Shown here: positions 1,347 to 23,481 of the stretch, piece after piece
Layout of the letters: every line of letters begins with the position of its first letter
Position numbering within the stretch: the first letter of the stretch is position 1
Source: a virus
Reading direction: 5' to 3' (one strand)
Virus record (IMG/VR): IMGVR_UViG_3300037585_003461
Location: 1 to 23,481 of that record
DNA length: 23,481 nucleotides
Program-made: the position numbers and the translations under genes
Notes under the pieces: generated by a model
The model's database searches: none
What the model saw: the letters and a program-made list of their open reading frames with translations, nothing else
Told to the model about the DNA's origin: nothing

Positions 1347-3089
1347 ATGTCTGTATTTAACACACTCACCGAAGGTATTAGAGCACGCTCTCTTGCCAAT
1401 GAAGGTGAAGCTCTTCTTGAGAAGTGGGAAAAGACGGGTCTTCTGGAGGGTCTTGACGAGAACGGTCGTTCTAACATGTCACGCCTCTTGGAAAACCAGG
1501 CTGCCCAACTTCTTAAAGAAACGAGCACAATGCAAGCGGGGGATGTCGAAGGCTTCTCCGCAGTTGCTTTCCCAATCGTCCGCCGTGTATTCGGTAATCT
1601 TTTGGCACAAGATCTCGTATCTGTTCAACCCATGAGTCTCCCTTCGGGACTGATCTTCTTTCTAGATTTCACCTTCTCTCCAGACGGTGGCATGACGGAT
1701 CAACATCGTTTGGCCCAGGCTCAAAACACCTCTGTTTACGGTGGTGGCAGAGTCGGTGCTCAAATCACAGGTGGTGTGAACTTGGCCGAGAACAATGGTC
1801 AGCTTTCTGCTTACACCTTGAACAACGGTTTTTCTAGCCCGACTCATTCTGCTAGTGAAAGCCCCGTCGTCTACGCCTCTGGTACCTATGGTGACACTGA
1901 CAGTCGCCCAGGTGGCCAGTACTTCGACGAACTTCAAGCCGATCCGGTTTTTGTGTCGGGTAGCACAACCTACGCTTTGGCGAGGATTAACAAACCTGCT
2001 AATCTCAACCTGGACGATCTTGTTGCTGTTACAACTGCCATTAATGGCAACTCAACCTACTCTGGTGGTATTGTTGGGATTAATAAGTTCGTCGTCCGTC
2101 GTCTTACAAAGATCTCGGCAACCGCTGGCAAGTTGGATATGGTTTTCTTCGGCACTGGCTCGGCTACTGCTACTGACGCACTTCCTGATGTCAATGACCT
2201 CAAGACTGCTGCTCAAGCTCAGGACAGAGTTAAATACCCCATGGTTGACGGATTCACCAATGGTTCCGCTGTCGGTTCCGTCATGGGTACCGACTTCTGG
2301 GGTCTTGAGAACGAATCAAGCATCCCCGAAATTGACATCAAGGTTGATTCCGTGGCTGTCACAGCGTTGACCAAGAAGTTGAAAGCTAAGTGGAGCCCCG
2401 AGCTTGCTCAGGACTTGAACGCTTATCACAACCTCGACGCTGAAGTTGAACTGACCAGCATTCTCTCTGAGCAAATTGCTCTTGAGCTTGACCAAGAAAT
2501 TCTTGAAGACTTGGTTAAGGGTGCTACTGCCGGTACATTGTTCTGGTCTCGTAGCCCAGGTAAGTTCTTGAACCGTGAAACGGGTGCCCCTGTTTCGGGT
2601 ACAACCTACCCGGACTTCACAGGTACCGTATCCGAGTGGTACGAGACGCTTCTTGAGACTGTCAACGAAGTAAGTGCCCGTATCCATCGCAAGACTTTGC
2701 GTGGCGGTGCGAACTTCGTCGTTTGCTCTCCTGAAGTAGCCAACGTACTTGAGTTTACCTCTGGCTTCCGTGCCAACGTAGAGGTGGATTCTAAGGACGG
2801 CTCCTGGGGCGTTCACAACGTCGGTTCTATCAGTCGTAAGATGGACATTCATGTCGATCCTTACTTCACCCGTAACGTGATCCTTGTTGGTCGCAAGGGC
2901 AGCAGCTTCCTCGAAAGTGGATATGTCTATGCTCCTTACGTCCCGCTGCAAGTCACACCTACCATCTTTGGTACAGAAGACTTCGTGCCCCGTAAGGGCG
3001 TGATGACTCGCTATGCCAAGAAGATGGTGCGTCCTGACATGTACGGTCTAGTTATCGTGGCAGATCTTGTATCTGATGTAGCTGGCTAA
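1347..3089 (+). CDS. gp23: Major capsid protein gp23
   Basis: This is the 580-residue precursor of the main head shell subunit (T4 gp23 is 521). Recognisable gp23 features are the VSVQPMSLPSGLIFFLDF block at residues 91-108 (T4 has a matching VQPMNSPTG segment) and the C-terminal block YAPYVPLQVTPTIFG (about 527-541), followed by RKGVMTRYAKKMVRPDMYG. T4-type capsid proteins lose an N-terminal piece to the gp21 protease after a glutamate. A plausible site here is after E68 (GDVE|GFSA), just before the conserved FPIVRRVFGNL segment. The start follows AAGGAG, 12 bases after the scaffold stop, so the two genes are probably co-transcribed from the motif at 294. Codons are tidy and C-ending, as expected for a highly expressed gene, and a terminator follows. 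Confidence 0.95.
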   Translation: MSVFNTLTEGIRARSLANEGEALLEKWEKTGLLEGLDENGRSNMSRLLENQAAQLLKETSTMQAGDVEGFSAVAFPIVRRVFGNLLAQDLVSVQPMSLPSGLIFFLDFTFSPDGGMTDQHRLAQAQNTSVYGGGRVGAQITGGVNLAENNGQLSAYTLNNGFSSPTHSASESPVVYASGTYGDTDSRPGGQYFDELQADPVFVSGSTTYALARINKPANLNLDDLVAVTTAINGNSTYSGGIVGINKFVVRRLTKISATAGKLDMVFFGTGSATATDALPDVNDLKTAAQAQDRVKYPMVDGFTNGSAVGSVMGTDFWGLENESSIPEIDIKVDSVAVTALTKKLKAKWSPELAQDLNAYHNLDAEVELTSILSEQIALELDQEILEDLVKGATAGTLFWSRSPGKFLNRETGAPVSGTTYPDFTGTVSEWYETLLETVNEVSARIHRKTLRGGANFVVCSPEVANVLEFTSGFRANVEVDSKDGSWGVHNVGSISRKMDIHVDPYFTRNVILVGRKGSSFLESGYVYAPYVPLQVTPTIFGTEDFVPRKGVMTRYAKKMVRPDMYGLVIVADLVSDVAG

Positions 3090-5952: not shown

Positions 5953-8900
5953 ATGGCTGACAACTCTTCCAAAAAGTTTAAGTTCATTTCGCCAGGAGTA
6001 TTTATCGACGAGATCGATAATTCACAACTCCCTGAAACCCCCACCGCCGTGGGACCTGTAATTATTGGTCGCTCTAGGAAGGGTCCAGGCGACAAACCTG
6101 TCCAAATAAACTCTTATTCTGATTTTGTTCAGACCTTTGGCAACCCTGTTGCTGGCAATGAGGGTGGAGATGTTTGGCGTGATGGCAATCATACGGCCCC
6201 CACCTATGCTGCTTATGCTGCTAAAGCGTGGCTCCGTAACAACTCCCCCATCACATTTGTCAGGACGCTTGGTAGCCAAGATTCTAATGCTACGGATGAC
6301 GGTAAAGCCGGCTGGGAAGTCAACACGGCCAATTCCGGCAACACTGGTGGTGTTTTTGCCTTGGTTGTATGGCCTTCATCGTCACTGTCGGGTGCCTTCG
6401 ACGGTGGTGCCGACGGTACCGCCGGCGGATTAACTGCTCCTGTAACCGGTACAGTCGCTGCTCAATTTTATACTAACGGTCGAGTTCTCCTTTCTGGTTC
6501 TACGAGTGAGGGCTCCGCTGGTAGCACTTTGTATGAGGTCGCAGACAAGGATTCGTTCACACTCGTATTTACGGGCAGTTCTCAGCCCTTGGCAGAACTT
6601 AAAGTAAGTTTGAATCCTGATTCTGAACACTTTATTAGAAAAGCTTTGAATACCAACCCTACGGTTATGAACTCTAATATCACAACATCTACTACTAGAG
6701 ACTTTTATCAAGGTGGACACTACTTCTTGGGCGAGTCTTATGAGTACTCAGTAGCCGCCGCTGGCGCAGATTCTATTGGGTTATTGGCAGGAATCAGTTC
6801 AGGATCTAGTGACGGCTCGGGTTCGGTATCTTATAGCAAGTTCCATGCTGCTATCATGCCCATGGTTGTGAATGGCACTGCCAGCATTCAGCAGAACAAT
6901 TTCCGTGGCGCTGCCCAGAAGGCAAGCACAGGCTGGTTTATTTCGCAGGATCTCTCGGAAGACACGGGCTCTTATACTGCCCGCACTCAACAAAAGCTTT
7001 TCCGCCTTGAGGCTCTCACCGCTGGTGCGTGGGCTCAAGAAGAGGTGAAATTATCTATCTCCAACATTAAGGCTCCTACTGGAAATTACGAAACTTATGG
7101 GTCGTTTTCGGTATTGGTGAGACGTCTTAGTGATACTGACGACCGACAAGAGATTGTGGAACGTTACGATAACCTTGATTTAAACCCTGTGTCCGAAAAT
7201 TATCTCGCCAAGAGAATCGGGGACAGATATCAGGTTTATGATGCGTCGGCTGAACGCAATGTAGAGTACGGCGAGTTTGAAAACCGTTCTAATTATATTC
7301 GTGTGGTCATGAATGAAGATGTTGCCGCCGGCACGCTTGAAACTCGATTGTTGCCCTTCGGTATGTTCGGACCTATCAAGTATCGTGATGTAAGCATGAC
7401 CTCAGGGTCTGCGGGGTTCAGTCCTTATGGCACTTACAATATTGACGCTGGTAGGGGCAATACCCAAACTATGCTTGACGGCAGTAGTTCAGCAGCATAT
7501 GGCGACGCTGGATATCTTCCATCCATCGCCCCCGACGCTGGTATTTTGAACGTTGATCTTCTTAATGTAGCTTCAGCGGCTCGTACAGCTTTTAGTGCTT
7601 CGATCCGCTTCCCTTCAGTGCCTTTGCGCACAAAGAGTGCTTGGGGCAGCCCCCGTAGCGCCAAGAACACCTTTTGGGGTGCCTGGACAGGTAGAAGCTC
7701 TACCGATACGTTCTTCAACCCCCAGATCCTTGACTGCTTAAGACCCCGAAGCTTTGATCAGACCGTCACCGCAGCCCCGCTGAGTGTCGATGTTGCTGGC
7801 GAAACCTCGGCACTGACAGGCTCTCAAGCTTATGAAGCTGCGTGGGTGTTCTCGCTCGACAATATCTCCGGCTCTGCGGCTGACGGCTACCAATACGCCA
7901 ATACTTACCGCTCGGCGGGTACGAGTGTCACAGCCGCTGGCTCTACGGGATATAAAGCCGCTATAACTGCTGGTTTGGATCGCTTCACGACTACGCTTCA
8001 CGGTGGTTTTGACGGATATAACATCAAGGAGCGTGACCCTTTCCGCAACTCGCAATCCGATTTTGCGGCAGCCACACAGGGAAACACTTCTTATCAACTA
8101 TTCTCGCTGAAAAAGGCCATCAACATGGTAGCCTCCCCAGACGACGTTCAAATGAATGCCATCGTCATCCCAGGCATTATTAGACCGCAAGTGACAAACT
8201 ATCTTCTGGAAATAGCGGAAGATAGAGGCGACTCTTTAGCGATCATCGATATTCAGAACGCCTACACACCTGATACTGAGGGCACGGGATCTGCCGAAGA
8301 TAGAAACTCGGGCAACACTCCAGCGGCTGCTGCTACTACTCTTGCGAACCGTAGCATCAACAATAGCTACGGCGCAGCTTACTACCCATGGGTGAGTATT
8401 TTGGATACTAACACCAATCAACGCTTGTGGGCTCCGCCATCGGTTGCTGCTTTGGGCGTTTTATCGAACACCGATAGACAGCAGGCACCGTGGTTTGCGC
8501 CAGCCGGGTTTACCCGAGGCGGGCTCAGCGAAGGCGCTGCGGGTGTACCAGTGTTGGATGTCTCACGCAAGCTTACTGCTGATGACCGAGACACATTATA
8601 TGAAAACAATATTAATCCGATTGCCAAGTTCCCCGCAGAAGGTATTGTAATCTTCGGACAGAAGACACTACAGCAAACTGCCAGTGCTCTTGATCGTATT
8701 AATGTACGTCGATTGATGATCTACCTCAAGCGTGAGATTTCTTTCATTGCTTCAAGGTTGATTTTTGCGCCTAACACTCCTGCCACTTGGGATCGATTCC
8801 TAGGACAAGCGGAACCTCTTCTGAGGGATGTAAAATCACAATTTGGTATTGATGATTTCCGTCTGATTTTGGACGAGTCAACAACCACCCCCGATCTTAT

Positions 8901-9009
8901 CGATCGTAACATTATTTATGCCAAATTGTTCGTGAAGCCGACACGCTCAGTAGAGTTCTTCGCCATCGACTTCATAATTACTAACAATGGGGCGTCTTTC
9001 GAGGATTAA
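5953..9009 (+). CDS. gp18: Tail sheath protein gp18
   Basis: This 1018-residue protein forms the contractile outer tail. The N-terminus carries the hallmark ISPGVFIDEID (residues 12-22), followed by TAVGPVIIGRSRKGPGDKPV and a FVQTFGNP turn, which are standard for sheath proteins. The last 120 or so residues hold the conserved C-terminal domain (NVRRLMIYLKREISFIASRL, then DDFRLILDES and FAIDFIITN) that knits neighbouring subunits together. T4 gp18 is 659 residues, so about 360 extra residues lie in the middle, in Ser/Gly/Thr-rich segments that probably form surface-exposed domains. The start follows GAGGAG. It is transcribed with its own candidate late promoter and is followed by the tube gene, as in all contractile-tailed phages. 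Confidence 0.95.
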   Translation: MADNSSKKFKFISPGVFIDEIDNSQLPETPTAVGPVIIGRSRKGPGDKPVQINSYSDFVQTFGNPVAGNEGGDVWRDGNHTAPTYAAYAAKAWLRNNSPITFVRTLGSQDSNATDDGKAGWEVNTANSGNTGGVFALVVWPSSSLSGAFDGGADGTAGGLTAPVTGTVAAQFYTNGRVLLSGSTSEGSAGSTLYEVADKDSFTLVFTGSSQPLAELKVSLNPDSEHFIRKALNTNPTVMNSNITTSTTRDFYQGGHYFLGESYEYSVAAAGADSIGLLAGISSGSSDGSGSVSYSKFHAAIMPMVVNGTASIQQNNFRGAAQKASTGWFISQDLSEDTGSYTARTQQKLFRLEALTAGAWAQEEVKLSISNIKAPTGNYETYGSFSVLVRRLSDTDDRQEIVERYDNLDLNPVSENYLAKRIGDRYQVYDASAERNVEYGEFENRSNYIRVVMNEDVAAGTLETRLLPFGMFGPIKYRDVSMTSGSAGFSPYGTYNIDAGRGNTQTMLDGSSSAAYGDAGYLPSIAPDAGILNVDLLNVASAARTAFSASIRFPSVPLRTKSAWGSPRSAKNTFWGAWTGRSSTDTFFNPQILDCLRPRSFDQTVTAAPLSVDVAGETSALTGSQAYEAAWVFSLDNISGSAADGYQYANTYRSAGTSVTAAGSTGYKAAITAGLDRFTTTLHGGFDGYNIKERDPFRNSQSDFAAATQGNTSYQLFSLKKAINMVASPDDVQMNAIVIPGIIRPQVTNYLLEIAEDRGDSLAIIDIQNAYTPDTEGTGSAEDRNSGNTPAAAATTLANRSINNSYGAAYYPWVSILDTNTNQRLWAPPSVAALGVLSNTDRQQAPWFAPAGFTRGGLSEGAAGVPVLDVSRKLTADDRDTLYENNINPIAKFPAEGIVIFGQKTLQQTASALDRINVRRLMIYLKREISFIASRLIFAPNTPATWDRFLGQAEPLLRDVKSQFGIDDFRLILDESTTTPDLIDRNIIYAKLFVKPTRSVEFFAIDFIITNNGASFED

Positions 9010-18976: not shown

Positions 18977-20203
18977 GTGCATGTGTTATTTCAAACGCTA
19001 GACGACAAAGCCGAATGCGTCGGCATTTACACTAACGGCGACTTATTGTTCGACCCGGAGACGTTCCCGCCGGAACTGAGCAAAACATGGAAGTGCGTCT
19101 CTTATCTCCGAGACGCCGACATTCAATATGCCTCCCTTTATTTGGAGGGTCGCTCCATCGCTGCCGTAATTCCTGAATATCTCAAGGATGATTGGGAGGA
19201 TGTGTCACAAAAGATTAACGCCTTTAGGCGGTCATTGTCTATTTCGCAGGTATCTACCGAGGAGAACTGTTTTTTTGATTTAGTGCCCCAGCGATTCCTT
19301 GTAGAGTTCTGCGAGGTAAAGAATAAAATAACAGAATATGTGCTCCAAAACACCCCACGACCTTCTCGTTACGAATTTTATAAACATGTAGCGATGATGC
19401 TTGAAGACATCAGCCACCAGCAGGTAACAATTAACCCTGCAAAGGTTTCCTCATATCTTCAGAGTTCTAAATTGAAAAGTCATGCTAAAACTTTGATGAC
19501 GGCGGCTCCCTCCGTAAAGTATAACCAGTTCGGCACTAAGACTGGTCGCCTCACTTCTAAGAAGGGGACAGTTCCGATTCTCACTCTGAGCAAAGAGTTT
19601 CGCTCTGCGATCGAACCGCAAAATGATTTTTATGTTGAACTGGACTTTAATGGTGCGGAGGTGAGGACATTACTGGGTCTCTTAGGGAAGCCTCAACCCC
19701 CGGAAGACGTTCACGATTTTCATCTACGAGAAATATTTACTAAAATTAAAGACCGTGAGACAGCGAAGGTGGCATTTTTTGCGTGGCTCTACGGTTCCCG
19801 CACCGCCGCAGACCCAGGGGAAATGAAGAAACTGGCATCGTTTTATGAAAAAGACAGGCTTCTCAAAGAATATTGGGACGGCGAGACAGTTAGAACGCCA
19901 TTTAGAAAAGAAATAAGCTGCGCAAGCGAGCACCACGCTCTGAACTACCTAGTCCAATCCACGGCAGCCGAACTCGCCCTAAAGCAGGCTCTAAAGCTGG
20001 AGCATCTTCTGCGAACGCAGTCCCACGGCTCCCAACTCGCCTTTTTGATCCATGATGCTGTGATCCTGGATATGAAAAAGGAAGACGAGCACCTATTTAA
20101 ATCACTACTGGAGTTGATGGCTTCTACAAATTTTGGCAAATTCAGAGTAAACGTCAAAAAGGGTACAACCCTCGGCTCGATGAAGGACTTTAAAATTGGA
20201 TAA
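18977..20203 (+). CDS. Compact family A DNA polymerase (polymerase domain only)
   Basis: A 408-residue protein with the ordered motifs of Pol I/T7-type polymerases: TGRLTS (189-194); motif A ELDFNGAEVR (D223, E228, R230); motif B/O-helix RETAKVAFFAWLYG (R260, K264, F268, Y272, aligning with E. coli R754, K758, F762, Y766); ALNYLVQSTAAEL (N323, Q327, as N845, Q849); and motif C LIHDAVILDM (catalytic D360, with A361 where Pol I has Glu). The first 150 residues match no exonuclease known to me and show no DxE motif. The span from O-helix to N323 is about 35 residues shorter than in Pol I, so the fingers are reduced. The start is GTG 18977 or, better placed after GAGG, GTG 18983. SSB and UvsX genes nearby support a replication role. 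Confidence 0.85.
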   Translation: MHVLFQTLDDKAECVGIYTNGDLLFDPETFPPELSKTWKCVSYLRDADIQYASLYLEGRSIAAVIPEYLKDDWEDVSQKINAFRRSLSISQVSTEENCFFDLVPQRFLVEFCEVKNKITEYVLQNTPRPSRYEFYKHVAMMLEDISHQQVTINPAKVSSYLQSSKLKSHAKTLMTAAPSVKYNQFGTKTGRLTSKKGTVPILTLSKEFRSAIEPQNDFYVELDFNGAEVRTLLGLLGKPQPPEDVHDFHLREIFTKIKDRETAKVAFFAWLYGSRTAADPGEMKKLASFYEKDRLLKEYWDGETVRTPFRKEISCASEHHALNYLVQSTAAELALKQALKLEHLLRTQSHGSQLAFLIHDAVILDMKKEDEHLFKSLLELMASTNFGKFRVNVKKGTTLGSMKDFKIG

Positions 20204-21053
20204 AGTTATTGGCTTGGGTAAGTTAGGCTGCGCTATCGCAGAGGAACTTACCTCTTACCCCGAATACAGAACCTATAAAATTGCTGCGGCTATTGATGAG
20301 AAGGAAGGCCTAAGTATAGGCACCTTGGGAACCATGGCTGATTTTGAAGGGCAATTAAACACGCAAGAGGTAGCGTATTACTTGAGATCCTTAAAAAAAG
20401 AGGATCAGGTACTGCTGGTAGTTGAAGGCGGCGATCCTATTTCGGGCGCTACTCTGAAAATCCTAGAAGTAGTCAAGGATTTACGAATAAGCGTTTTGTA
20501 TATATGCCCCGACAGGCAAATGATCTCAGAGACTCAGAAGCGTGATGATAGGATCTCTTTTCATGTGCTACAGGAGTATGCTCGCTCGGGCAAGTTTGAA
20601 AATATCTTTTTAGTGAACAAGCCCAAGGTAGAGGACCTTGCGGGTGATGTCCCTATTAGCAAATACGAGAAGACTATTTCGTATTTTGTGTCTTATGTTG
20701 TGGCGATGGTAAACTTTTTCACCCACACCGAGCCCATTCTGGCTAGTAAGATCAGTCCTCTGGACATCTCTCGTATTGTTTCCTACGGCGTCTCGTCCCT
20801 AGAGACCGGCAAAACAGAGGTGAACCTCCTGTTTCCACTGAGACAGATCAAGGACATACATTTTTTTTATGGAATTCCAACAAAAGACCTTTCCGAGGAT
20901 ACGTCTCTTGTTAAAAAAATTAAGGACCACGTTAAGGCCCATCAGACCGACGAGGTAGCTACGAGCTTCTCCGTCTATGAGACAACTCTAGACAATATGA
21001 TTGTTTTATGTGCCGCCTATTCGTCTACGGTGCAGCAATTTGCCTTCAAATAG
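20196..21053 (+). CDS. Divergent tubulin/FtsZ-fold protein (putative)
   Basis: A 285-residue protein starting at TTG within the polymerase stop region (eight-base overlap), with AAGGA eight bases upstream. No family is certain, but the order of elements follows phage tubulin PhuZ and FtsZ: an N-terminal KVIGLGKLG loop (3-10); strand QVLLVVEGG leading into GGDPISGAT (78-86), where tubulins have GGGTGSG; a helix, then strand ISVLYICP; strand NIFLVNKP (136-143); a long helix 156-178; and SPLDISRIV (187-195), matching the T7-loop LDxxD region but with Arg in place of the second Asp. If correct, it could bind a nucleotide and assemble but hydrolyse poorly. A generic Rossmann-like protein is the alternative. 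It is coupled to the polymerase gene. Confidence 0.55.
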   Translation: MDKVIGLGKLGCAIAEELTSYPEYRTYKIAAAIDEKEGLSIGTLGTMADFEGQLNTQEVAYYLRSLKKEDQVLLVVEGGDPISGATLKILEVVKDLRISVLYICPDRQMISETQKRDDRISFHVLQEYARSGKFENIFLVNKPKVEDLAGDVPISKYEKTISYFVSYVVAMVNFFTHTEPILASKISPLDISRIVSYGVSSLETGKTEVNLLFPLRQIKDIHFFYGIPTKDLSEDTSLVKKIKDHVKAHQTDEVATSFSVYETTLDNMIVLCAAYSSTVQQFAFK

Positions 21054-21114: not shown

Positions 21115-21549
21115 ATGACGAATAAACGTGGAGTTTTGTTGGCATCTTTTATCAAGACTGACCAAGATGAACAAATCCAAGAAGAGGTTGAATATATTGT
21201 CAACCATATTGAAATAACCAATAATTTAATATTTCTCCTAGAAGATCTGACGGACCCCCTCAAGAAGATCATTACCTACAATGCGGTGGTTGAAAAGGGA
21301 AAGCCCTTTAATCCTCGCCTTTTTACCATGCGTGTACACCGCAAAAAACAGACCAATACACTTTATACTATCAATGCGCTCAATAAGGCTGTTGCAGCCC
21401 AGCATGGCGGCAAGACGGGAAAACATTTAAAGCTCGACTGGTCTCAGTACGAGAACTCTATTCTTCTCGCCGCCGGCAGCGAGTTAAAAGTACATCCGGT
21501 AGAGGTTAGTAAAATCTTTAAGATAGAAGAACCACCCGAAGAGGAGTAG
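21115..21549 (+). CDS. Small protein of unknown function before the SSB gene
   Basis: A 144-residue soluble protein. The N-terminus is acidic (TDQDEQIQEEVEYIVNHIEI), the middle is Arg/Lys-rich and contains RVHRKKQTNTLYTINALNKA (73-92), followed by the AAQHGGKTGKHLKLDWSQYE segment, and the last residues are EEPPEEE. I recall proteins with a similar 'NTLYTINALN' stretch in T4-like phages, but no function. In T4 the neighbours of gene 32 are 33 (late transcription co-activator) and 59 (helicase loader); position makes a replication or transcription helper thinkable, but the sequence does not show it. The ATG has AAGG 12-15 bases upstream, a rather long spacing. Confidence 0.75.
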   Translation: MTNKRGVLLASFIKTDQDEQIQEEVEYIVNHIEITNNLIFLLEDLTDPLKKIITYNAVVEKGKPFNPRLFTMRVHRKKQTNTLYTINALNKAVAAQHGGKTGKHLKLDWSQYENSILLAAGSELKVHPVEVSKIFKIEEPPEEE

Positions 21550-21759: not shown

Positions 21760-22536
21760 ATGGGTATTGACTTAAATAAGATGCGGCAGAAACACGCTGC
21801 CTTGACTAATCGTGGAGGAGACTCTAATGATTATTTCTGGAAGCCTGAAGAGGGCACACACCAGATCCGTCTAGTATGTCCCGACGGAGGAGATCCTTTC
21901 TTCGAGGCCTACTATCACTACAGCATGGGTGCTGAAGGGCGCACGACTGTGCTCAGTCCACGCACTTTTGGCGACGAGGACCCGATCGCTGAGTGGGGCA
22001 CTCGACTCTGGAATGAGGGAACTGATGCCTCCAAGGAAGCCGCTAAACGCTTCTGGCCCAAGATGCGAGTGTTCGCTCCCATCCTCGTGCGTGGCGAAGA
22101 GGACAAGGGTGTTCGCTGGTGGGGCTTTTCCCGCACCACCTACCAGGCACTATTGGATGTAGTTCTGGATCCCGAATACGGTGACATCACGGACACCGAA
22201 AAGGGCACGGATCTTCGTATTGACTACGGCAAGAAGTCGGGTCAATCATTCCCAACGACTGATGTGCGCCCCATGCGGCGCACTAGCAAGCTCGGCGACA
22301 CCGAAGAGCAGGTCAACACTCTTCTGGAATCCCTTCCCGGCGTAGATGACGTTTTTGAAAAAACAACTCAGGAGCAGTGCGAGAAAGTTCTTGCCGAAAC
22401 CCTCGGCGAGACCCCTTCTTCCGAGGACAAGACCGAGACCACCCGCTACGCCGCAGCTTCTCAGACCCCTGCGCCTGAGAAAAAGATTGAGAGCGTCAGT
22501 GATATCGACTCTGCGTTCGACGACCTTCTGGCGTAG
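21760..22536 (+). CDS. gp32: Single-stranded DNA-binding protein, gp32-like, lacking zinc cysteines
   Basis: A 258-residue protein (T4 gp32 is 301) placed just before uvsX. Matches to gp32 are the N-terminal basic helix (N-K-M-R-Q-K-H), the FWKPEEGTHQIRLV strand (26-39), the R-L-W...FWPKMRVFAPILV core, GVRWWGFSRTTYQALLDVV (117-135) and the acidic C-terminal tail SDIDSAFDDLLA, the usual docking tail for replication partners. In T4 a zinc is held by H64, C77, C87 and C90. Here H53 remains, but the cysteine positions align with S66, D74 and A77, and the only cysteines (C40, C207) are elsewhere. The protein should coat single-stranded DNA in replication and recombination with the polymerase and UvsX. 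A terminator follows. Confidence 0.8.
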   Translation: MGIDLNKMRQKHAALTNRGGDSNDYFWKPEEGTHQIRLVCPDGGDPFFEAYYHYSMGAEGRTTVLSPRTFGDEDPIAEWGTRLWNEGTDASKEAAKRFWPKMRVFAPILVRGEEDKGVRWWGFSRTTYQALLDVVLDPEYGDITDTEKGTDLRIDYGKKSGQSFPTTDVRPMRRTSKLGDTEEQVNTLLESLPGVDDVFEKTTQEQCEKVLAETLGETPSSEDKTETTRYAAASQTPAPEKKIESVSDIDSAFDDLLA

Positions 22537-22553
22537 TTGACCCGCCACCCGCA

Positions 22554-22588
22554 GGGAGGCACGGGGTTACAGGTGCCTCTCCTCTTTT
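22554..22588 (+). terminator. Rho-independent terminator between SSB and uvsX
   Basis: GAGGCAC (22556-22562) pairs perfectly with GTGCCTC (22573-22579), extended by two outer pairs including one G-T, around a ten-base loop. CTCTTTT follows, and GGAG, the ribosome site of uvsX, comes straight after. It probably ends most SSB mRNA while letting some read-through make less UvsX. Confidence 0.65.
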
Positions 22589-22597
22589 GGAGATAGA

Positions 22598-23481
22598 ATG
22601 AATAAAGCAAAACAAAAAAGTCTTGTAAGTGATTTGCGCAACGAACTTAACAAAGCGGCAAAAGAAAATGTCGCCTTTGATTTACACGGCGACAATCCCA
22701 CCGATGTTAAGACTTGGATCTCTACAGGTTCGACTCTTCTTGATTATATTATTTCCAACCGCCGTGATGGTGGTATACCGGTAGGAAAGCTCACCACCAT
22801 TGCTGGAGAATCTGCCAGCGGAAAAAGTTTATTGGCAACCCAGATCCTTGCCAACGCTCAAAAGATGGGCGGTCTGGCAGTATATATTGATACTGAAAAC
22901 GCTGCCTCGCCTGATTTTATGCAGCAACTGGGGCTAGATACAGAAAATAATTTCATGTATGTTCAGCCTGGGACGATTGAGGAAGTATTTGAGACCATTG
23001 AGCGTTTGATTGGGTTAATTCGAGAAAAAGCCCCTGATAAATTAGTTTGTATTGTGTGGGACAGTGTTGCCGGCACCCCGGTCAAGGCTGAGGTTGAGGG
23101 TGACTATGACCCCAACAGCCGAATTGGATTGACGGCCAAAGCACTAGCCAAAGGAATGCGGAAAGTAACTGAGACTCTTGGCAAGGAACAAATTGCAATA
23201 GTTTTTACTAACCAGTTGAAGACCAACATCGGCGTGATGTTCGGAGACAACCGAGTTGAGCCAGGTGGTAAGGCACTACCCTACCACGCTTCCAGCCGTA
23301 TCTGGCTCACCCAGCACAAGGGCAAGTCCAACGGGCAAATCATTAACGAAAAGAAGCAGGTTATCGGTTTTCACACGAGTGCCAAGACTATGAAGTCTCG
23401 CTTCGGACCATCGCCAAGGAGTTGCCAGTTCGATGTATTATTTGACCTTGCTAACGACCGTGTTGGCGTTGATGATGAAGG
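22598..23481 (+). CDS. uvsX: UvsX/RecA-type recombinase, 3' end cut by the window
   Basis: The first 295 residues of a RecA-family strand-exchange protein, running off the right edge. The motifs are clear: Walker A GESASGKS (70-77), the catalytic glutamate in IDTENAA (E100, as RecA E96), Walker B LVCIVWDS (149-156), and the L2 region with TNQLKTNIGVMFG (204-216), then GGKALPYHASSRIWL (223-237). The L2 region is nearly bacterial RecA in sequence (RecA: INQLRMKIGVMFG), closer than I would expect for T4 UvsX. It should form filaments on single-stranded DNA and drive homologous recombination and recombination-dependent replication, with the SSB next to it. The ATG follows GGAG at five bases. It lies just past the SSB terminator. 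Confidence 0.92.
   Translation, partial: MNKAKQKSLVSDLRNELNKAAKENVAFDLHGDNPTDVKTWISTGSTLLDYIISNRRDGGIPVGKLTTIAGESASGKSLLATQILANAQKMGGLAVYIDTENAASPDFMQQLGLDTENNFMYVQPGTIEEVFETIERLIGLIREKAPDKLVCIVWDSVAGTPVKAEVEGDYDPNSRIGLTAKALAKGMRKVTETLGKEQIAIVFTNQLKTNIGVMFGDNRVEPGGKALPYHASSRIWLTQHKGKSNGQIINEKKQVIGFHTSAKTMKSRFGPSPRSCQFDVLFDLANDRVGVDDE

Follow-up and report, generated by a model that had tools for sequence, protein, structure and literature searches.

A divergent protein with a predicted tubulin/FtsZ fold in the replication module of uncultured T4-type marine phages

Phage-encoded tubulins have been described from jumbo phages and, as the TubZ group, from plasmid prophages of the c-st-like kind (PMC7950403, PMC3678025). 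The jumbo-phage protein PhuZ positions the DNA of the phage and transports its capsids (PMC7950403, PMC13282480). Published surveys present phage tubulins as a hallmark of the nucleus-forming jumbo phages with scattered occurrences in other large phages (PMC11835377, PMC7950403), one of them naming tubulin as a distinguishing trait of the Chimalliviridae that is found in a handful of large phages besides (PMC11835377). In the open full-text literature, of which coverage is incomplete, neither a tubulin of T4-type phages nor a pair of tubulins in a single phage is reported. The protein described here, TubL, is encoded in a 23,481-nucleotide stretch of viral DNA (the window) and like PhuZ is a phage-encoded protein with a tubulin fold, in this case a predicted one. 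PhuZ is a protein of nucleus-forming jumbo phages, whereas TubL occurs in T4-type phages on contigs of up to approximately 190 kb that carry Gp23/Gp20 virion genes. A core replication-module gene with a predicted tubulin fold is present in at least 582 T4-type phage contigs while being nearly invisible to sequence searches of Pfam, PHROGs and the PDB, which would make cell-skeleton proteins, as defined by fold, far commoner in phages of ordinary size than has been thought. If TubL organises DNA, cytoskeletal spatial organisation would be a common trait of such phages.

By its capsid and baseplate genes (T4_baseplate, 2.1e-11, and the capsid gene in Table 1) the phage is T4-type, and its relative G001 is classified likewise from sequence matches to portal (Portal_T4 (Gp20), 5.8e-80) and terminase (Terminase_6N, 2.4e-13). 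The preliminary description had placed the gene in a T4-type replication module, which holds for the virion genes and the gp32-like single-stranded DNA-binding protein (SSB), but the adjoining polymerase is of family A and not of family B like T4 gp43, so that the label T4-type does not extend to it. Motif C of this short polymerase reads HDA. The order PolA-TubL-(orf144)-SSB-RecA is found in nearly all TubL loci, orf144 being present in clade 1 of the family, and the module continues with a 5'-3' exonuclease and a DnaB helicase. The RecA-like reading frame at the end of the window is 84-95% identical to the one that follows the SSB gene in clade-1 loci, and its counterpart in G001 is a RecA (PF00154, 1.8e-42). 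TubL is a core gene of the replication module in a large group of uncultured T4-type marine phages. PolA, orf144 and SSB are shared with two isolates, Flavobacterium phage immuto and Microcystis phage Mel-JY01, and with the 484-kb record LR756508, yet there is no TubL near polA/SSB in any of the three, nor near the related SSB of a Lysinibacillus phage, and TubL is therefore a variable component of a broader module. The small protein orf144 has no match in Pfam or PHROG and lies between PolA and SSB in immuto, Mel-JY01 and LR756508 (31-39%).

Table 1. Positions of the tubL gene, its sequence elements and its neighbours in the window, and of the TubZ-like gene on related contigs
Feature	Position	Strand	Basis
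Gp23-type major capsid protein, marks T4-type	1347..3089	+	PF07068 1.3e-71
Family A DNA polymerase (PolA), 408 aa	18977..20203	+	PF00476 4.8e-17
SD-like AAGGA within polA, 8 nt 5' of the TubL TTG	20183..20187	+	sequence; relatives
TubL start/polA stop overlap, 8 nt, TTGGATAA	20196..20203	+	sequence; relatives
TubL, divergent protein with predicted tubulin/FtsZ fold, 285 aa, TTG start	20196..21053	+	ORF, AF2 model, VIA, family
T1 phosphate loop GLGKLGCAIA, residues 6-15 (clade 2 mostly GLGKAGCNIA)	20211..20240	+	A2 columns
T4 loop GGDPISG, residues 78-84, in place of GGGTGSG	20427..20447	+	A2; model
QEYARSG, residues 126-132, end of helix H5	20571..20591	+	most conserved family stretch
Central helix H7, residues 154-176	20655..20723	+	DSSP
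T7 loop TEPILASKISPLDISR, residues 178-193, with R193	20727..20774	+	A2; model
orf144, small replication-module protein	21115..21549	+	immuto gp002, 38.8% identity, 2e-21
gp32-like SSB	21760..22536	+	phrog_1192 3.5e-18; PF08804 1.2e-05
RecA-like gene, 5' part; contig end cuts gene, start not fixed	22538..23481	+	relatives
TubZ-like tubulin, adjoins terminase	L091:1399-2535; L093:808-1944; G001:C1:78510-79646		

The 285-residue reading frame singled out in the preliminary description is real. Because it has at least 582 viral relatives, a conserved gene order and a bias between codon positions, tubL is not a chance open reading frame, and the differences within a close pair of tubL genes, 9% at codon positions 1 and 2 against 46% at position 3, imply that TubL is under purifying selection. 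Support for the start is good: TTG-GAT is kept in 15 near relatives from clade 1, and several relatives have the SD-like sequence at the same spacing as the window. The overlap of the two genes suggests that tubL is translationally coupled to polA. The segments on which the tubulin comparison had originally been built are present as given, with KVIGLGKLG at residues 3-11, the T4-signature segment VVEGGDPISGAT at residues 75-86 and SPLDISRIV at residues 187-195.

The relatives of TubL were collected from IMG/VR with a pattern built from a six-sequence alignment, a scan that returned at least 600 stretches of DNA and gave at least 582 loci. The alignment used throughout (A2) holds 74 members, 53 of clade 2 and 21 of clade 1, the clade of the window, and is invariant at G6, G8, Y24, G78, L87, Y102, Q126, Y128, R130 and S131. 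Isolate phages gave no TubL match when two members were compared with 50,697 phage records by tblastn, and none of the 31 pattern matches in a collection of bacterial and archaeal species (genome_contigs) is a TubL relative. Single-sequence searches of Pfam, PHROG and the PDB with TubL gave nothing useful. TubL stays below the curated cut-off of PF00091, to which four of the 74 members have a weak match (best E 0.011), and is accordingly a member of the superfamily by fold and not of the Pfam family by sequence. At the C-terminus of many clade-2 proteins (L023-L086) there is a conserved acidic sequence, DDQ(D/E)I(S/G), that could serve for docking or for contacts within a filament.

The AlphaFold2 model of TubL made from A2 (mean pLDDT 93.7, pTM 0.91) has the full tubulin/FtsZ fold, as has a clade-2 model (L032, pLDDT 95.4, CetZ Z 25.1) of a protein that is 32% identical to the TubL of the window. 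Both models are predicted to contain the GTPase domain, the central helix H7 and the C-terminal domain in tubulin topology, and both align with CetZ, TubZ, FtsZ and tubulin with Z scores of 22-25 across 257-281 residues; for the window protein VIA-align gives Z scores of 25.5 for CetZ, 24.4 for TubZ, 24.1 for FtsZ and about 22.5 for tubulin. Foldseek places FtsZ at the top (2.8e-12) with TubZ close behind, and the nearest viral model is an 'FtsZ Cell division GTPase' of an uncultured phage (1.3e-12). Profile-profile alignment (hhalign) pairs TubL with phage TubZ over 260 columns (93.8% probability, E 1.7e-7), and a TubL profile run on the proteomes of three genomes finds TubZ as its next best match (5e-7). 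With two models in agreement the fold is as certain as prediction can make it, and TubL almost certainly has the tubulin/FtsZ fold. The tubulin/FtsZ reading of the preliminary description is borne out by the two models and the structure searches: where a confident model of some other fold might have emerged, the outcome was tubulin/FtsZ, and the segments assigned to T1, T4 and T7 fall where the fold places these loops. A structural comparison had been proposed with FtsZ, TubZ and PhuZ together; FtsZ and TubZ match by fold, but PhuZ does not match by profile, phrog_4733 having no TubL match in eight records.

That TubL is instead a plain Rossmann NAD- or nucleotide-binding protein of the TrkA_N or RCK-like kind, with a chance likeness to tubulins, is very improbable. 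Among the weak Pfam matches of TubL, TrkA_N is the most frequent (35 of the 74 members, best 8.8e-06) and KtrA heads the PDB profile matches (0.009), but the KtrA match spans just the first 90 or so residues, whereas the models fit members of the tubulin family from end to end and the profile aligns with a bona fide TubZ over 260 columns. Because the predicted tubulin fold runs the full length of TubL, both matches are set aside, that to TrkA_N as misleading.

TubL differs from each of the known tubulins that it resembles. It shares the fold of TubZ, the partition tubulins of Bacillus plasmids and phages (4ei7, 2xka), over 273-281 residues with Z scores of 23-24, but it has some 100 residues fewer, no T3 and a reduced T7/H8 region, and its gene stands beside polA and SSB, the encoded neighbours being PolA, orf144 and SSB. 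The top Z scores to TubL (25.5, 25.1 and 24.1) are those of archaeal CetZ (3zid, 4b45) and FtsZ (2r6r), yet identity to these is 11-14%, GGDPISG replaces GGGTG(S/T)G and TubL, with no relative in genome_contigs, is not a cellular gene.

The T3 loop, which contacts the gamma-phosphate, is missing and T7/H8 is reduced across the TubL family, as judged from the models and the alignment. Some 40 residues separate the strand that ends at residue 30 from the strand that starts at residue 71, a short connection in both models, and hhalign leaves TubL with a gap of 18 residues opposite the T3 motif GEQGAGKD of phage TubZ. The T4 loop is flanked in the model by a strand (71-77) and a helix (81-92) but the GGGTG(S/T)G signature is absent, the clade-2 proteins mostly having G(A/S)GxISG at this place. 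Helix H8 is absent from both models, in which the T7 loop runs directly into a strand (194-200 in the window model). The arginine that had been reported in place of the second T7 aspartate, R193, is confirmed and is almost invariant (72 of 74 members), but the exact alignment of T7 is uncertain, and an acidic residue at position 190, found in 47 of the 74 members under that same uncertain alignment, may replace the catalytic aspartate with R193 just behind it. TubL probably has little or no GTPase activity. Weak hydrolysis had been expected in the preliminary description, and weak or absent hydrolysis fits the predicted lack of T3 and reduction of T7/H8. The part of the family conserved most strongly is the QEYARSG motif, of which Q126, Y128, R130 and S131 are invariant in all 74 proteins. 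This motif lies where H5 terminates and R193 where T7 does; from the topology of the fold both would face away from the nucleotide.

Tubulins contact the guanine base through asparagines in H1, T6 and H7. Judged by the aligned residues, these contacts are mostly kept in clade 2 and mostly lost in clade 1. N13 is present in 32 of 53 clade-2 proteins against none of the 21 in clade 1, N142 in 48 of 53 against none of 21 (19 of which have K or R), and N162 in 50 of 53 against three of 21, position 162 within H7 being a serine in the window protein and an asparagine resembling a guanine contact in clade 2.

A new finding is that relatives of the window encode a second, TubZ-like tubulin beside the terminase. 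This protein of 378 aa (G001, G006, G007, G008) scores above the PF00091 cut-off in four of eight records, has the canonical T1, T3, T4 and T7 motifs (GAGQGGGRMA, GEQGAGKD, GVSGGSGGG and TTFDATDYDSI) and is closest among solved proteins to Bacillus cereus TubZ (4ei7, E 8.6e-12); the PhuZ profile phrog_4733 matches it weakly (about 1e-3). By profile it is a distant homologue of TubL, from which it differs in its canonical motifs and its place beside TerL and portal. It also has a conserved N-terminal LDIEDYDP and a basic, helix-like C-terminal tail, KRIEGLKKFL. In G001 tubZ lies upstream of TerL and portal between the genes of two small membrane-type proteins, and at the same place in the clade-2 genome G003 two similar small proteins are encoded side by side without a tubulin. 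The gene is approximately 32 kb from tubL and past the end of the window, so that the preliminary description, drawn from the 23.5-kb fragment, could not have included it. The TubZ-like proteins of eight genomes are 92-100% identical while their TubL proteins are 54-89% identical, and the tubZ genes differ by 15-50% at third codon positions and by 0-5% at the first two, so that strong constraint explains much of the high identity.

In the TubL tree the window belongs to a 26-row clade (100/100) together with every TubZ-bearing contig that was placed in the tree, and two more TubZ-bearing contigs adjoin L021 of this clade by tblastn. Both proteins are encoded on 14 contigs among the matches listed, all of them with a clade-1 TubL. 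Four clade-2 contigs of 155-190 kb, which may be incomplete, have no TubZ by Pfam or profile, and for G002 and G003 of this clade an exhaustive hmmsearch gives none either. That guanine-contact residues are lost in the very clade that has TubZ offers a natural test of the conversion of a tubulin into a non-hydrolysing partner. A TubZ relative with 50% identity and likewise an N-terminal LDIEDYD is encoded by an unrelated 241-kb phage (G030, L311 / L314-L315) whose contig has no TubL or PolA match, and TubZ therefore occurs apart from TubL and may move alone. An obligate TubL-TubZ pair is rejected, since TubL is found without TubZ on the clade-2 contigs above 150 kb and the G030 TubZ without TubL. 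The only isolate phage to match the TubZ-like protein is Bacillus phage G at 78656-79654 (gp137, overlapping 138; 20.6%, 8e-6).

The best reading, with a likelihood a little short of even, is that TubL is a tubulin deficient in hydrolysis that serves to organise the DNA or the replisomes of the phage, probably by capping a filament or acting as an adaptor. The more general proposal that it acts in the organisation of DNA or replisomes is evenly balanced. TubL would be co-produced with the polymerase through translational coupling and would help to place or organise the replicating phage DNA. In clade 1 the conserved lower face (QEYARSG, SRIxTxG) may bind a tubulin filament at its nucleotide face, TubL thereby linking DNA or the replisome to the TubZ filament as a non-hydrolysing cap or adaptor, whereas in clade 2, in which the guanine-contact residues are kept, TubL may assemble with itself. 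For clade 1, with its intact tubulin and its decayed guanine pocket, a cap or adaptor is the simplest reading, although as a specific claim about TubZ it is tentative and somewhat unlikely. A fuller version is doubtful, in which catalytically dead TubL, made together with the polymerase, caps or seeds TubZ filaments and so unites replicating DNA with the packaging machinery without a phage nucleus. Against the proposed role in DNA organisation stand the separation of tubL and tubZ in the genome and, from the gene inventories, the apparent lack of strict interdependence between the two proteins and the isolates that have PolA, orf144, SSB and RecA and appear to do without TubL.

The same features may be read in other ways. 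An autonomous filament like those of PhuZ or TubZ, in which TubL polymerises with GTP and positions the phage DNA, is unlikely. In its favour, clade 2 retains the T1, T4, T6 and H7 guanine residues and has no second tubulin on contigs above 150 kb; it would also fit the predicted fold and the conservation seen on the T7 and H6-H7 sides alike. It is harder to reconcile with the family-wide lack of T3 and reduction of T7/H8, with the loss of most guanine residues in the clade of the window and with the missing PhuZ profile match. The position of tubL, fixed with few exceptions between polA and SSB, and its 8-nt overlap with polA would also suit an accessory of replication, such as a regulator or subunit of PolA or SSB that reuses the tubulin fold and forms no filaments, and the strongest motif, QEYARSG, does not correspond to any known nucleotide motif; such a role is nevertheless distinctly unlikely, as isolates with homologous PolA, orf144, SSB and RecA have no TubL and polA and tubL are separated by approximately 300 bases or more in many clade-2 loci. 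Small phage proteins that inhibit FtsZ are known, T7 Gp0.4 being an example, and this precedent, the place of FtsZ among the folds closest to TubL and the loss of catalytic parts expected of a dominant-negative subunit are consistent with a degenerate mimic of FtsZ that would prevent division by capping or poisoning the FtsZ ring of the host. Such a host-takeover function is improbable for a gene that lies in a replication operon, overlaps polA and is conserved across very divergent phages.

Further observations concern other genes of these phages. The tail sheath encoded at 5953-9009 of the window is unusually long at 1018 aa (up to 1299 in G002), its conserved sheath part lying near the C-terminus. 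G001 encodes a DnaE-type polymerase III alpha of 1137 aa with a PHP domain (G001:C1:34360-37773). About 20 proteins of G001 (L181-L189, e.g. L185 and L189) have common N-terminal motifs such as MKITKSQLRKIIKEE or MKKLLTEWRKFLKE, which recall the capsid-targeting peptides of the internal head proteins of T4, and by this analogy the proteins that bear them may be packed into the head.
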